64,000 nt of DNA, from assembly GCF_030848575.1 (NCBI RefSeq), contig NZ_JAVDDX010000001.1, forward strand, positions 558,001-622,000. Reading direction: 5' to 3'. Both the position numbers and the translations under genes were made by a program. Source of the stretch: Haloarcula sp. H-GB4. GTDB taxonomy: Archaea > Halobacteriota > Halobacteria > Halobacteriales > Haloarculaceae. The notes beneath the pieces are model-generated. The model saw only the letters and a list, made by a program, of their open reading frames with translations, searched no databases and was not told where the DNA came from. Shown here piece after piece: positions 55,764 through 60,746 of this stretch (the stretch's first letter is position 1; each line of letters opens with the position of its first letter).

Positions 55764-55919
55764 ATGTTCAGTGAGCAAGTCCCGGGCCAGTGTCCAGAAT
55801 GTGGGTCGGTGAATGTCCAGATAAACAGGGTCGCACCGTCGTCACACGAGCGCGGAGATGACTGGAGCATCCGTGCCGAGTGCCGCGACTGTGACGAGTA
55901 CACAGATTGGTTCGATTAG
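55764..55919 (+). CDS. 51-residue zinc-ribbon mini-protein
   Basis: MFSEQVPGQCPECGSVNVQI followed by an acidic middle and ECRDCDEYTDWFD. Two CxxC motifs (CPEC and CRDC) about 30 residues apart form a rubredoxin-like zinc ribbon. The preceding 55641-55763 gap is AT-rich with promoter-like TATTATTC and AAATATTAG near 55699-55723. Downstream 55920-56098 (179 nt) shows no convincing gene. Function unknown; such mini-proteins are common in haloarchaea. Confidence 0.75.
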   Translation: MFSEQVPGQCPECGSVNVQINRVAPSSHERGDDWSIRAECRDCDEYTDWFD

Positions 55920-56098: not shown

Positions 56099-57157
56099 TC
56101 AGTTACCCGAAAACGAGAACGAGGGCGTCGTCAGGAACGCTGTCTCGTATCCCTCATGACGGGACACCTGTGGCGGGGCGACGACATCGATGCCGACCGA
56201 TGGCTCTTGTACTGCCGTCCCGACGATTGCGCCGTAGTGATACCCGAGTTCGGGGTGGACTGCGGCGGTCAGCGCGTCTTCAAACACTGTCTCGCCGTCG
56301 GCATCCACGGTTCCGTCGAGAGACATCATCGGGAGGGGAACGCGGTTGTATGGCGTCCGAGCTGAGACGGCGAGATACGACTCACCGTCGGCGAGGAACG
56401 CGGCGTCCTGAAGCCACGTAACCGCGTAGACGCCGTCGTTTCCTTTGTCCGTCCCGAGGACCGTTCCGGGCAGCGCCGACACTTCGGGGACCTGCGAGGT
56501 CGGCACCATGTCCATGTTCATCAGGTCGATTGCTGCACGCTCGCCCTGTGAGTCCGGGAACTGCTCAAAGGAGAGCTGGTCGCGGGTGCTCTGTGCGAAA
56601 TCGAATTCGACCGTCGCCTCGCCGGCCTCGTTGAACCGGCCTTCGAGGGCACCCAGTCGGCGTTCACCCATCCCGTTGACGCGGACCGAGAGCTGATAGA
56701 CGCCGTCGCCGTCAAGCGCGTAGTTGTCGCCGTAGTGAAACCCCATGTTCTGGGAGATCATCGGCCACGGAGACTTGTCAGCGACCGTCTCCCCGTCGCG
56801 CTCAACGGTGATTGAGAGGCCGGCGGACACCGGGAGGACCATCTCGGTCTCGGGGTCCCAGACAGTCGCCATCAGGTGAACGCTGTCCTCACTCCGGATG
56901 TCGACCTTTTCGGCCGTCGTCCCAGTGACCGTCCAGAAGCGGTGGGGAAAGGAGTAGCTCAGTCCGACCATGTACTCGCCCGCCTGTGCAATCCCGGCCA
57001 TTCCCATCCCCTCTGCGTGGGTGGGCCGGTACGTGGCGTCGGGGCGGTTCTCGACCAGCGGTGGAGCGCGTGTCGACTGGGAACTCAGCGAACCACACCC
57101 CGCTAGGACTGTCGTGCCGGCGAAACCGGCACTGGCGAGGAACTGTCGTCGATTCAT
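56099..57157 (-). CDS. P19/Tp34-like metal-binding lipoprotein, internally repeated
   Basis: A 352-residue lipoprotein with the Tat/lipobox start MNRRQFLASAGFAGTTVLAGC. Two similar blocks contain a HYG motif: NMGFHYGDNYALDGDGVY near residue 150 and ELGYHYGAIVGTAV near 315. This HYGxN pattern resembles periplasmic P19/Tp34 iron-binding proteins, whose Met/His ligands lie nearby (VHLMATVW, MVPTSQVPE). Probable extracellular divalent metal binding. The partner permease is not in the window. Confidence 0.65.
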   Translation of the reverse strand: MNRRQFLASAGFAGTTVLAGCGSLSSQSTRAPPLVENRPDATYRPTHAEGMGMAGIAQAGEYMVGLSYSFPHRFWTVTGTTAEKVDIRSEDSVHLMATVWDPETEMVLPVSAGLSITVERDGETVADKSPWPMISQNMGFHYGDNYALDGDGVYQLSVRVNGMGERRLGALEGRFNEAGEATVEFDFAQSTRDQLSFEQFPDSQGERAAIDLMNMDMVPTSQVPEVSALPGTVLGTDKGNDGVYAVTWLQDAAFLADGESYLAVSARTPYNRVPLPMMSLDGTVDADGETVFEDALTAAVHPELGYHYGAIVGTAVQEPSVGIDVVAPPQVSRHEGYETAFLTTPSFSFSGN

Positions 57158-57267
57158 GAACCGCCTTTGGGTCCTCGTCTGAAAGACCGTTCTGGTACGG
57201 CGGCCGAATATCGTGGCGGGAACTGGACGGCACAAGACACTTGTTATTGGTCAGCACATTCCGGGAT

Positions 57268-57750
57268 ATGCCCTCCCTAACGCTTCGAGTTGTAGTCCTC
57301 GGTTTCGTCGTCCTGACCGCAGGCTGTTTCGGTGCGCCGTCGCCGGAGTCACCGGCCCCGTCGGAAGCAGCGACGACCGCTCCGTCCCCAACAGGGACCG
57401 TCGAGTTTCGGGACGGTCCGAAGGAACGGCCGAACCGGCCCGCGACGCTGAACGAGTCCTCCGTCCGTGAGTTCGTGTCCGAGTACCAGTACCGGCACGT
57501 CTACAACGGTCTGTGGCAGGGTGAATACACCGAAATGAGCCTCGACTGCCGCGTTGATACTGTTACCGAGCGGTCGTGGGGGTACGATGTCGTCGTCACC
57601 TGTACGGGATCTTCGACGACTGACCCGCCGGCCGGATCAACGGCGACAGAAGGACCGATATCCGACTATTTCACCCAGTCGTACCGCTACAGCGTCAGCG
57701 CCGACGCCCTCACCCGTGAATCAGTCGAGAACCGCGACCCGGTATCCTGA
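57268..57750 (+). CDS. Small lipoprotein
   Basis: A 160-residue protein: signal peptide LTLRVVVLGFVVLTAGC with lipobox, a Pro/Ser/Thr linker (PSPESPAPSEAATTAPSPTG), then a compact region with YQYRHVYNGLWQGEYTEMSLDC and Cys pair C-x..-C. The single domain may be stabilised by a disulfide. It is convergent with the DyP-like gene and divergent from the P19-like gene. Role unknown; location suggests a part of the same surface module. Confidence 0.65.
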   Translation: MPSLTLRVVVLGFVVLTAGCFGAPSPESPAPSEAATTAPSPTGTVEFRDGPKERPNRPATLNESSVREFVSEYQYRHVYNGLWQGEYTEMSLDCRVDTVTERSWGYDVVVTCTGSSTTDPPAGSTATEGPISDYFTQSYRYSVSADALTRESVENRDPVS

Positions 57751-57764
57751 CGACGCCAGAACCG

Positions 57765-59030
57765 TCAGGCTGGATCGGCCGGCGGGAGCGCCCGCAGGTC
57801 ACGTGGCGGGAGCAGGTAGTTCCCACGTCGCGTAACCGTCATGTACTGGAGGATCCCGTTGTTCACCCGCTGGCCGACGGCGGAGTCGTTAGCGACATCT
57901 GTTCCGTTCATCGCCTGTTTCGTCGCGACGAAGTCGGCGATAGAGCGTTGCAGCGCGAGGAAGTGCAGTCCCGCTTCACCGCCGTCGGTCGAATCAAAGT
58001 CCCGGCGGAGAATGGTCGGCGTCCCGTCTTCCCTGACGCGGGACATCTTCTGTGCGTGGCCAACGACACCCTCCCGCCGGCCGCTGTCGACCACATCCTC
58101 GGGGCATTCGCCGGCACCGTTGTCAGTGCCGAGGTTCTCGCCGACGCCTTCAACCTTGTCCTCGGCGGCGTGGGCCGGACAGAACATCTTCGAGACGCGC
58201 TGGTCCCGAGAGTCCTGTTCGTACCACTGCTGGAGTTGCAGCCGGATTTTCGAGAGGTGCTGGGTCGCGCCGCCGGCGAACGGCCCTGAATCGACCGTTA
58301 CCCGGTCCTCGGAGGCCTGGTTCTCCTTGAATCCTGACTTGAAGCCCATGAACAGCGGGGCCTCTTCCGGGACTGGCTCGGAGTCCGGAACCCCGTCGAC
58401 GTCCTGATTCTCGGCGGGCAGACCGGCCCCGACGAATCCCGTCCGGCGCTCCGCCTCGCGCAGCACACCCTCGAAGGTAGCGCTCATCTCGTGGTCGTTT
58501 ACCGTGTCTCGGTTGCCTTTCACCGCTTCCTCGGCTGCAATAACGGCCCGCTCGTCGTCGCTCGCGAGGTGTAGCAGTGCGTCGGGCGTGTCGAGTTCTG
58601 GGTCTTCGAAGGGGGCAAGCGCCATTGGCTCGGGCAGGTCGACGCCGGCTACGTCGGCCTCGAAGCGGTCGAAGTAGGTCGGACTGTACCCGAGCGTGAA
58701 CAGCAGTCCCTCGTTGCTCCACTCGTAGGCCCGTTCGAGGTCTCGAAGCGCAGTCTCGACCTGCTCGCGGTCGGCATCGGCCGGCGTTCCGTCGCCAGTG
58801 TAGTCCAGCAACAAGAGGACGTGGTGGCGCGACAGTCGGTGGTTCCCCGCGTCGTCAGTGGCCAGCGACGCGTCCCAGGCGTGCTGGCGCTCCGGGAGGG
58901 ACGAGGGGTCATCGGTTCCCTTGGGTACCGTTCCCGATCCGCGATCAAGACAGGCGGCCAGTGCCGCGGTGCCGCCGATGGCGACGGCACTCTTGGCGAA
59001 CTCGCGTCGGGAAATGCCGCGTTCAGTCAT
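57765..59030 (-). CDS. DyP-type peroxidase-like Tat lipoprotein with altered GxxDG motif
   Basis: A 421-residue protein exported by Tat (SRREFAKSAVAIGG then AALAAC lipobox). The DyP core is recognisable: FMGFKSGFKENQASEDRV, FAGGATQHLSKIRLQLQQW, GHAQKMSR with likely proximal heme His, ILRRDFD with the distal Arg, and GLHFLALQRSI near the end. The catalytic GxxDG reads GFKSG (229-233), so Asp is Ser. Acts at the outer face, possibly in heme/iron handling as EfeB does. Start MTERGISRR is at 59030. Confidence 0.75.
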   Translation of the reverse strand: MTERGISRREFAKSAVAIGGTAALAACLDRGSGTVPKGTDDPSSLPERQHAWDASLATDDAGNHRLSRHHVLLLLDYTGDGTPADADREQVETALRDLERAYEWSNEGLLFTLGYSPTYFDRFEADVAGVDLPEPMALAPFEDPELDTPDALLHLASDDERAVIAAEEAVKGNRDTVNDHEMSATFEGVLREAERRTGFVGAGLPAENQDVDGVPDSEPVPEEAPLFMGFKSGFKENQASEDRVTVDSGPFAGGATQHLSKIRLQLQQWYEQDSRDQRVSKMFCPAHAAEDKVEGVGENLGTDNGAGECPEDVVDSGRREGVVGHAQKMSRVREDGTPTILRRDFDSTDGGEAGLHFLALQRSIADFVATKQAMNGTDVANDSAVGQRVNNGILQYMTVTRRGNYLLPPRDLRALPPADPA

Positions 59031-59106
59031 CACCCACACTATGGGCTGCCCGTGCAATTGGGTTGTGGTACAAGACTCGAAAGCACCGCTGCCCGCAGAA
59101 ACTGAG

Positions 59107-59610
59107 CTACTCGCTCTCGAACAGCCTGTCAAGTAACCGGGTGAAGCGATCCGACAGGCGGTCGGGGCCCGTGGGCTCCACTGCCGCGAGCAGTTCGACC
59201 GTCAGGTCCGGCCGACAGAGCGCCAGCGTCACTCGTCCCTCGCTCCGGCGCTTTTCGACGATATCGTGCTCGACCAGCCCGCTGAGGTGGTGTTCGAGCG
59301 TGCTCCGTGCGATATCGAGATGGCCGGCCACCTCGCCGGGGCGAGCAGTTTCGCGCTGTATGAGCGTAACAAGAATGTCTCTCGCCGTCTCGCGACGGAG
59401 GAAGGCGATAGCATGGCGCTCCCAGGGGTCAAACGACGACGCGTAGTAGTGTGTACGCCCATTGACCGACTCGCTGTGAACGCGGTCAAGTCTGGCCAGG
59501 TGGTGCTGGACCTGTCCCGTCGCGAGGTCCAGCGCCCGTGTTAGTTCTCGGAAGTGAACGCCCGGATTCGACTCGATATGCTGGTGGATTCTGGCTCTGG
59601 TGTCGCTCAT
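59107..59610 (-). CDS. Two-domain winged-helix transcription regulator
   Basis: A 167-residue DNA-binding protein with two wHTH units: residues about 1-60 (NPGVHFRELTRALDLATGQVQHHLARLDRV) and 75-130 (RPGEVAGHLDIARSTLEHHLSGLVEHDIVEKR). Each contains HHL-type recognition helices. No metal motif is obvious. It precedes the DyP-like gene (76 nt) and is coupled by a 4-nt overlap to the membrane gene, and may regulate this cluster. Confidence 0.8.
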   Translation of the reverse strand: MSDTRARIHQHIESNPGVHFRELTRALDLATGQVQHHLARLDRVHSESVNGRTHYYASSFDPWERHAIAFLRRETARDILVTLIQRETARPGEVAGHLDIARSTLEHHLSGLVEHDIVEKRRSEGRVTLALCRPDLTVELLAAVEPTGPDRLSDRFTRLLDRLFESE

Positions 59611-59942
59611 AGTCCCTCCTCATCGAGGCGTTTCTCGACTGTCCGGGCGTAGTACACTGCACCGAGGACGAGGACGACAAAGACGGTATCGAGCGCGTGT
59701 TCGAGGAGATGGTGAGTCGGTGCTGAAACCACTGAAAACCCCGACAACAGCGCGATGAGCGGGCGGGCAAACAGCGCGGTGAGTGCGAGCGCAATCAGCA
59801 GGTACGCGCGCGTTCCGCGTTGTCGGTACGCGGCCAGGGCGAGCCCACACAGGATTGCTCCGGCTACGGCGGAGAGGACAACGACGGCGACGATATCCCA
59901 GCTCTCAGCGCCGGAGTGCCCCCCAATACTGAGCAGCTTCAT
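59607..59942 (-). CDS. Small three-helix membrane protein (DUF7471-like)
   Basis: A 111-residue membrane protein: DIVAVVVLSAVAGAILCGLALAAY, AYLLIALALTALFARPLIALLS and LDTVFVVLVLGAVYYARTV. The loop SAPTHHLLEHALDT carries several His, which might bind metal or heme. The ATG is at 59942; the longer frame upstream is a shadow. Its stop overlaps the regulator start by 4 nt, pairing a membrane sensor-like protein with a DNA-binding regulator. Confidence 0.75.
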   Translation of the reverse strand: MKLLSIGGHSGAESWDIVAVVVLSAVAGAILCGLALAAYRQRGTRAYLLIALALTALFARPLIALLSGFSVVSAPTHHLLEHALDTVFVVLVLGAVYYARTVEKRLDEEGL

Positions 59943-59993
59943 CAGACCACTACTTCGAAACCACGGTGCCTCAGTCGTTCGGTTTTGCGCGAC

Positions 59994-60023: not shown

Positions 60024-60746
60024 ATGGACTGCATCGGCTTCATCTGCGAGCCTGAACACCCGGTGTTTGGTGCCGTCGCAGAACGGCTCTCCGCTCGGGG
60101 GTTCGACGTCCAGTTTCTCCGCCCCGGAAACCCGGTGGCCAAAGCCGATATCGACGACCTGGCCGCACTCGTCAATACGACGCTCGGGCCGGAGTCGTTC
60201 AGCGCCCTTCGATACGCTGACAGCGTTGGCGTTGAGACGTGGAACGGGTTCCTGCCGACGACGGCGCTTGCCTGCCGACTTGTCGCCCTGAACGGGTTGG
60301 AACAGGTCGGCTGTAAGGTGCCGACCGTCTGGTTCGAAAAGCCAGAGTGCGATTACATCCCTCGCACCCGCTACTCCTGGGACGGTGTGCCGGCAAATAG
60401 CGACGAGGGCGATTTCTATCAGGCCTGTGTTCGGGAGGAGCCGGTGGAGTACAAGTACTTCGCCGTCAACGACGGCCGCGAAACCCATCTGCGAGCGATT
60501 CAGGTTCGGTCGGAAGTGTCCGGGCTGGACCACGTCATCAGCGAGGAGACTGTTGAGGTGACGCTCGCGGCCCGTGTCCGGGAGTTACTGGACCGCTTCG
60601 GCGCGCGGGCGCTCTGTGTCGAGTTTGTCGAAGGCGAATCACAGTTCTACGCACAGGCTGTCGACCCCGTGCCGGGATTCGCTGGGACGGGGATGGAGCG
60701 CCGCGTCGCCGACTCTATCGCCTCGCTGACAACAATCGGTGCCTGA
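60024..60746 (+). CDS. ATP-grasp/RimK-like protein, short
   Basis: A 240-residue protein. The N-terminus MDCIGFICEPEHPVFGAVAE and NGFLPTTALACRLVALNGLEQVGCKVPTV looks like the pre-ATP-grasp domain of RimK/ITPK enzymes, and EYKYFAVNDGRETHLRAIQVRSE and ALCVEFVEGESQFYAQAVDPVPGF (split at GES) resemble the metal/ATP-binding strands. The segment is shorter than a complete ATP-grasp, so it may be a lineage variant. Substrate unknown. Confidence 0.6.
   Translation: MDCIGFICEPEHPVFGAVAERLSARGFDVQFLRPGNPVAKADIDDLAALVNTTLGPESFSALRYADSVGVETWNGFLPTTALACRLVALNGLEQVGCKVPTVWFEKPECDYIPRTRYSWDGVPANSDEGDFYQACVREEPVEYKYFAVNDGRETHLRAIQVRSEVSGLDHVISEETVEVTLAARVRELLDRFGARALCVEFVEGESQFYAQAVDPVPGFAGTGMERRVADSIASLTTIGA

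Follow-up and report, generated by a model that had tools for sequence, protein, structure and literature searches.

A P19-like and DyP-like lipoprotein pair as a candidate extracytoplasmic copper/iron redox module in haloarchaea

P19 and DyP systems and the Haloarcula locus

P19 proteins are known partners of FTR1, and they bind copper while serving iron uptake. EfeB is an iron-uptake peroxidase (this is also the title of 6jbn), and the DyP superfamily is catalytically diverse. Bacterial P19 (FetP) has been described as an iron-uptake protein (PMC6083913, PMC10783030). The fetMP-fetABCDEF system of C. jejuni includes the ABC permeases FetB and FetC together with the ATPase FetD (PMC6083913, PMC10783030). 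The locus described here lies in the window, the whole stretch of 64,000 nucleotides of Haloarcula sp. H-GB4 DNA that was analysed, and encodes a P19-like and a DyP-like lipoprotein. We will use the term P19L to define the former.

P19L resembles P19, FetP, FtrA, Tp34 and HftA (PF10634) in the fold of its N-terminal domain, its His-Met-His residues and its extracytoplasmic place. Unlike P19/FetP, it has two P19 domains per chain and a DyP-like partner, and its ligands differ in that Glu44 has become Met, an extra Met138 is present and the fourth His is lost. The DyP-like protein has a complete DyP fold (Z ~27) and Tat export in common with EfeB and the DyP-type peroxidases, and an invariant proximal His and distal Arg in common with EfeB. 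It differs from them in the replacement of the GxxDG Asp in 55/55 sequences, in an Asp or His at the position of DypB Asn246 and in being a lipoprotein. The setting is different as well, in that the order is without the FTR1 (FetM) of fetMP systems and the DyP-like protein occurs without the EfeU or EfeO of EfeUOB. The four module proteins score over the Pfam cut-offs of DUF7405, DUF7350, DUF7471 and HTH_HVO_0163_N. A literature search found no publication on DUF7350 or DUF7405, and a survey of copper in Haloferax mediterranei leaves P19 and DyP unmentioned. The P19 and DyP folds are known, while a tandem P19 with changed ligands, a modified DyP and their pairing without FTR1 appear to be undescribed in the literature searched.

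A preliminary description of this DNA proposed a module of five adjacent genes. All five open reading frames are real (Table 1), but the conserved unit is one of four genes, and its core is the pair formed by P19L (DUF7350) and the DyP-like protein (DUF7405). The four genes share the minus strand, where the DUF7471 membrane protein comes first and the winged-helix (wHTH) regulator, the DyP-like lipoprotein and P19L follow. The gene of the small lipoprotein sits between the last two on the opposite strand, and therefore outside the operon. It has tblastn matches in close Haloarcula relatives only (79-88% conserved), and where it is present in Haloarcula it puts ~600 nt between the DyP and P19L genes. 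It has been treated as an insertion and not as a member of the module. The core pair and the regulator pair are syntenic in relatives. The proposed Tat lipoproteins, and the two-wHTH regulator overlapping a His-containing membrane protein by 4 nt, are borne out by the signals, Pfam matches and coordinates.

Two further genes have been observed close to the module. A 51-codon open reading frame (55764-55919, plus strand) has two CxxC pairs (CPEC and CRDC) and likely encodes a small zinc-finger protein. A 240-aa protein without a Pfam match is encoded divergently from the module (60024-60746, plus strand) and is syntenic across Haloarculaceae.

Table 1. Features of the locus, in window coordinates
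Feature	Position	Strand	Remarks
P19L Tat lipoprotein	56099..57157	-	Signal MNRRQFL...LAGC; two tandem P19-type domains
Small Sec-type lipoprotein	57268..57750	+	No match in Pfam and NCBIfam searches
DyP-like Tat lipoprotein (DUF7405)	57765..59030	-	Signal SRREF...AAC
Two-domain winged-helix regulator	59107..59610	-	Pfam HTH_HVO_0163_N and HTH_5
Three-TM membrane protein DUF7471	59607..59942	-	HHxxEH motif; 4-nt overlap with regulator
ACCGAACGACTGAGG (ACCGAAN6AGG)	59969..59983	-	Just upstream of the membrane-protein/regulator pair; conserved in Haloarculaceae

The P19-like and DyP-like lipoproteins

P19L matches Pfam DUF7350 (2.6e-51) and scores 20.9 bits against Iron_transport (PF10634), for which the gathering cut-off is 21. 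A profile built from 41 homologues matches FtrA/P19 sequences (E 3e-5). The AF2 model (pLDDT 90.7) superposes on FetP, HftA, Tp34, FtrA and P19 with VIA Z scores of 12.4-13.3 over ~135 residues, and the comparison with FetP (Z 13.3, 2.6 A, 136 residues) confirms the P19 beta-sandwich fold. After the P19 group, the closest folds are DUF4426 and CrdA (Z 9-10). CrdA, a copper resistance determinant of H. pylori for which an Ag-bound structure is listed, comes behind DUF4426 in rank (Z 9.2). It has a similar small beta-sandwich fold, but its identity to P19L is low (12%) and the likeness is one of fold.

The duplicated HYG blocks reported earlier as like those of P19/Tp34 (residues 141-143 and 307-309) have held up. 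The N-terminal domain spans residues ~48-193 and the C-terminal domain (DUF7350) ~228-349, and the profiles of the two halves match each other with an hhalign probability of 96% and an E of 1e-9, with cross-hits in 41/41 members. This shows DUF7350 to be a degenerate second P19-type domain and the HYG blocks to be a real duplication. The degenerate domain would make a single P19L chain resemble a pseudo-dimer.

The metal ligands of P19 are H42, E44, M88, H95 and H132. Variants E44Q and M88I are listed in the PDB titles among the P19 structures, which implies a role for Glu44. In the alignment of P19L with the bacterial P19 of Azospirillum, VHLM pairs with VHLE and MGFHYG pairs with DGPHYG. H42, M88 and H95 have their equivalents in H94, M133 and H141 (41/41), and the position of Glu44 is occupied by Met in 41/41 homologues; H94, M96, M133, M138 and H141 are each invariant (41/41). 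The GRH of the H132 region is GRF in P19L, with Phe at position 175 in 35/41 sequences and His not among the residues listed there. Judged from these alignments, the N-terminal domain keeps the His-Met-His ligands and gains a Met, which gives a soft, Cu(I)-like set, and the five invariant residues would form a single predicted metal site. Sets of two His and three Met are typical of Cu(I) sites generally.

The preliminary description suggested that the locus may be an unassigned haloarchaeal system for acquiring metal or heme. Being softer than that of P19, the ligand set of P19L points to copper more than to the acquisition of heme or of iron as such, and there is nothing that specifically backs a heme system. 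The main rival explanation is nevertheless iron acquisition, in which the pair would act like P19 plus EfeB and iron would be oxidised or bound and passed to a non-FTR1 permease. The iron-uptake role of EfeB counts for this explanation, and a copper-like site in P19L is compatible with an iron role because bacterial P19 binds copper yet serves iron uptake. The assignment of FetP as a bacterial iron-uptake protein points the same way (PMC6083913, PMC10783030), but two of the P19 ligands, Glu44 and the fourth His, are replaced in P19L.

The DyP-like protein matches Pfam DUF7405 (3.6e-166) and also Dyp_perox_C (25.2 bits, cut-off 20). Its AF2 model (pLDDT 90.2) matches DyP peroxidases in Foldseek (8e-17) and, EfeB structures included, in VIA (Z 27.5 over 295 residues), which establishes the DyP fold and agrees with the DyP homologue first proposed. 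The predicted models, which contain neither metal nor heme, thus match both of the folds, P19 and DyP, that had been named. BURRH repeats also appeared among the PDB profile matches of the DyP alignment and were discarded, as these matches cover the signal peptide only.

The active-site residues have been mapped by alignment with E. coli EfeB, for which the HHalign statistics are weak and the motifs coincide. The proximal heme ligand His329 of EfeB corresponds to His324 (55/55), and Arg347 corresponds to the distal Arg341; both Arg341 and Arg342 are present in 55/55 sequences. Asp235 of EfeB (GFKDG), the Asp of the GxxDG motif, corresponds to Ser231, a position held by Ser in 43 sequences, Ala in 10, Thr in 1 and Asn in 1. 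The catalytic Asp of GxxDG was found in 0/55 aligned sequences, and for this reason the protein has not been filed as a canonical DyP peroxidase. Position 343, two residues past the distal Arg, is by our mapping equivalent to Asn246 of DypB, and 45 of the 55 sequences have Asp there and 10 have His. The coupling between the two positions is perfect, Ala231 occurring with His343 (10) and Ser, Thr or Asn231 with Asp343 (45), which suggests two active-site subtypes. We read this pattern as a probable move of the distal acid from GxxDG to the DypB-Asn246 position.

The fold and the conserved proximal His, as modelled, would imply heme binding, and this is the point in favour of a heme acquisition system in which the DyP-like protein would bind heme from outside the cell or strip it from its carrier. 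The heme of DyP proteins is normally a cofactor, however, and no heme ABC transporter occurs among the neighbours scanned, although a TANGO2-family gene lies further along in Natrialbaceae-type loci. We regard heme acquisition as very improbable.

Distribution, permease search and neighbouring genes

DUF7405 is present in 126/146 and DUF7350 in 120/146 genomes of the order. Both occur in 120 genomes, DUF7405 only in 6, DUF7350 only in 0 and neither in 20, a nested pattern with a hypergeometric p of ~1e-19, uncorrected for relatedness. In the phylum sample, DUF7405 matches are limited to the window's own order. The DyP and P19L genes are adjacent on the same strand at 66 loci, with a median gap of 58 nt and 12 overlaps; loci L001-L092 were retrieved via the DyP protein, so adjacency counts there are conditioned on it. 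The two genes are mostly close or overlapping where the small lipoprotein gene is absent. The conservation of the pair is far above chance. Haloferax volcanii, included as a control row, carries both families. The four genomes that are >=98% complete and without a heme-copper oxidase (G010, G012, G039 and G101) all have neither protein (p 6e-5, uncorrected, from genomes that are few and partly related); G019, oxidase-less and 63% complete, has both.

Additional copies have been identified. A second DyP-P19L pair adjoins an enolase-superfamily gene in the Haloarcula genome itself (G000:C1:53232-55539, L104), which also has a third, divergent and solitary DUF7405 copy (G000:C2:72495-73478, L105) and a third DUF7350 match. 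A MAG contig labelled Candidatus Bipolaricaulota (L089:7558-9188) carries a divergent DUF7405 copy and a P19-like sequence, from either haloarchaeal contamination or transfer.

The catalytic diversity of the DyP superfamily, the 6 genomes with DUF7405 and without DUF7350 and the solitary copy at C2:72495 would fit another explanation, in which organic compounds are the substrates of the DyP-like protein, a general peroxidase or oxidase of the cell surface, and P19L is an unconnected metal protein encoded in the same operon. Against it stand the strict nesting (0 genomes with DUF7350 and without DUF7405) and the frequent translational overlap across families, and we consider it unlikely.

The preliminary description found no permease in the window, and none is nearby. 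The absence reaches beyond the window and is order-wide: FTR1 was detected in 0/122 high-quality haloarchaeal genomes and EfeO/M75 in 0/146 genomes of the order, and the positive controls were detected in both searches. The module is therefore neither EfeUOB nor FetMP. Among the neighbours of the module loci there is no constant permease or ABC partner, and the neighbours differ by lineage. Downstream of the pair, Halobacterium has genes for an ABC ATPase and a MacB/FtsX permease (L055:7986-12468, L145:6062-10448), an arrangement like FetBCD of C. jejuni; the H. salinarum locus (L058) has a short permease frame and no called P19L. Other transporter neighbours are ZnuABC (L064), a phosphonate ABC system (L087) and ABC-2 (L146).

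These observations bear on iron acquisition in both directions. The continuation of the Halobacterium operon into ABC genes, which recalls FetB/FetC/FetD, and the ferritin-like neighbours at some loci would suit it. On the other hand, FTR1 and EfeO are missing from the order, no permease is constantly linked and, among the genomes sampled, the ABC/MacB link is seen in just a few that are related to one another. Overall, we hold iron acquisition to be possible but rather doubtful.

Natrialbaceae-type loci have a cohesin-like gene of ~250 aa as a third operon-like member (27 loci, all operon-like) and often add menaquinone-type genes. At L077:6872-16261 and similar loci, the pair lies within a group of MenB-like (enoyl-CoA hydratase family), cohesin-like, UbiA, MR_MLE, AMP-ligase and TANGO2 genes. 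An HMA-type P-type ATPase gene and a CDF (cation-efflux) gene lie beside the module in two genomes (L106 and L109); these copper-type genes may be one transferred island, and L109 contains a transposase. In L118 (6331-9500), L119 and L120, a P19L paralogue is divergent from genes for SCO1, a redoxin and a CcdA-like TM protein, which we read as probable CcdA despite the lack of a Pfam hit. Ferritin-like and HIPIP-like proteins are encoded near P19L in some loci. Taken together, the neighbour genes favour redox-metal handling and seem to lean to copper. Counter to the copper reading, copper-type neighbours occur in few lineages, and ferritin-like and ZnuABC genes are found beside the module elsewhere.

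The regulator pair and the proposed role

The regulator combines an HVO_0163-type N-domain (HTH_HVO_0163_N, 2.5e-31) with an ArsR-like wHTH (HTH_5, 1e-9). Against the ArsR/SmtB metalloregulator model NF033788 it scores 41.4 bits, under the NCBIfam cut-off of 55. HVO_0163 itself reportedly appears once in an acetylome paper. The membrane protein matches DUF7471 (8.3e-27) and has three predicted TM segments. An HHxxEH-type motif is present in the 24 linked DUF7471 copies aligned; as unlinked DUF7471 copies also carry it, it is a signature of DUF7471 as a whole and has been ruled out as a module-specific sensor motif.

The wHTH/DUF7471 pair adjoins DyP or P19L in Haloarculaceae, and the regulator stands beside one of them in several families. 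The pair lies beside DyP or P19L in other arrangements at, for example, L007, L015, L028, L046, L047, L060-L062 and L090, and further such loci are L139, L146 and L108, L110, L111 and L113, the last four with P19L and with DyP not in the stretch. By eye, about one third of the listed DUF7471 copies have a match to DUF7405 or DUF7350 no more than ~7 kb away. The element ACCGAAN6AGG upstream of the pair has one match in the window against 0.48 expected, and in other loci the matches close before called genes all precede DUF7471 genes. As a weak lead, it may be a candidate operator or promoter of the wHTH/DUF7471 pair.

We give an even chance to the explanation that the locus is a permease-independent extracytoplasmic copper/iron redox module run by the wHTH/membrane-protein pair, in which we infer the identity of the metal and the direction of its transfer. 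At the cell surface, P19L would bind a soft metal ion (Cu(I) being the most likely) through its His2Met3 set (H94, M96, M133, M138 and H141). The DyP-superfamily heme protein would clear surface peroxide, oxidise the metal carried by P19L, or both, so that copper (and indirectly iron) would be kept and handed on without Fenton chemistry in the oxic, high-salt exterior. The overlapping wHTH regulator and DUF7471 may switch the operon upon an extracytoplasmic signal. An FTR1-type permease would play no part, and onward transport, where present, would fall to different lineage-specific partners. Heme binding, peroxidase activity, signalling and the role of the module in detoxification, delivery or uptake are likewise what we infer. 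More tentatively, and with a chance well short of even, the module may consist of a single-chain tandem-P19 Cu(I) carrier and a heme peroxidase with a relocated distal acid, together making up a surface system that needs no permease and by which aerobic haloarchaea have uncoupled P19 from FTR1 iron uptake.

In most oxygen-respiring haloarchaea, the P19L/DyP pair occurs without an iron permease and looks like a route, so far unstudied, by which redox metals are dealt with extracellularly. More than 80% of the haloarchaeal genomes sampled have the pair, and the well-assembled genomes without an oxidase lack it. It appears to be uncharacterised; Haloferax volcanii, which holds both families, is genetically tractable. 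The DyP variant tests if a protein of this fold needs the GxxDG Asp or can use a substitute. A whole archaeal order with a P19 relative but no detectable FTR1 is also a natural experiment on the role of the P19 fold by itself.
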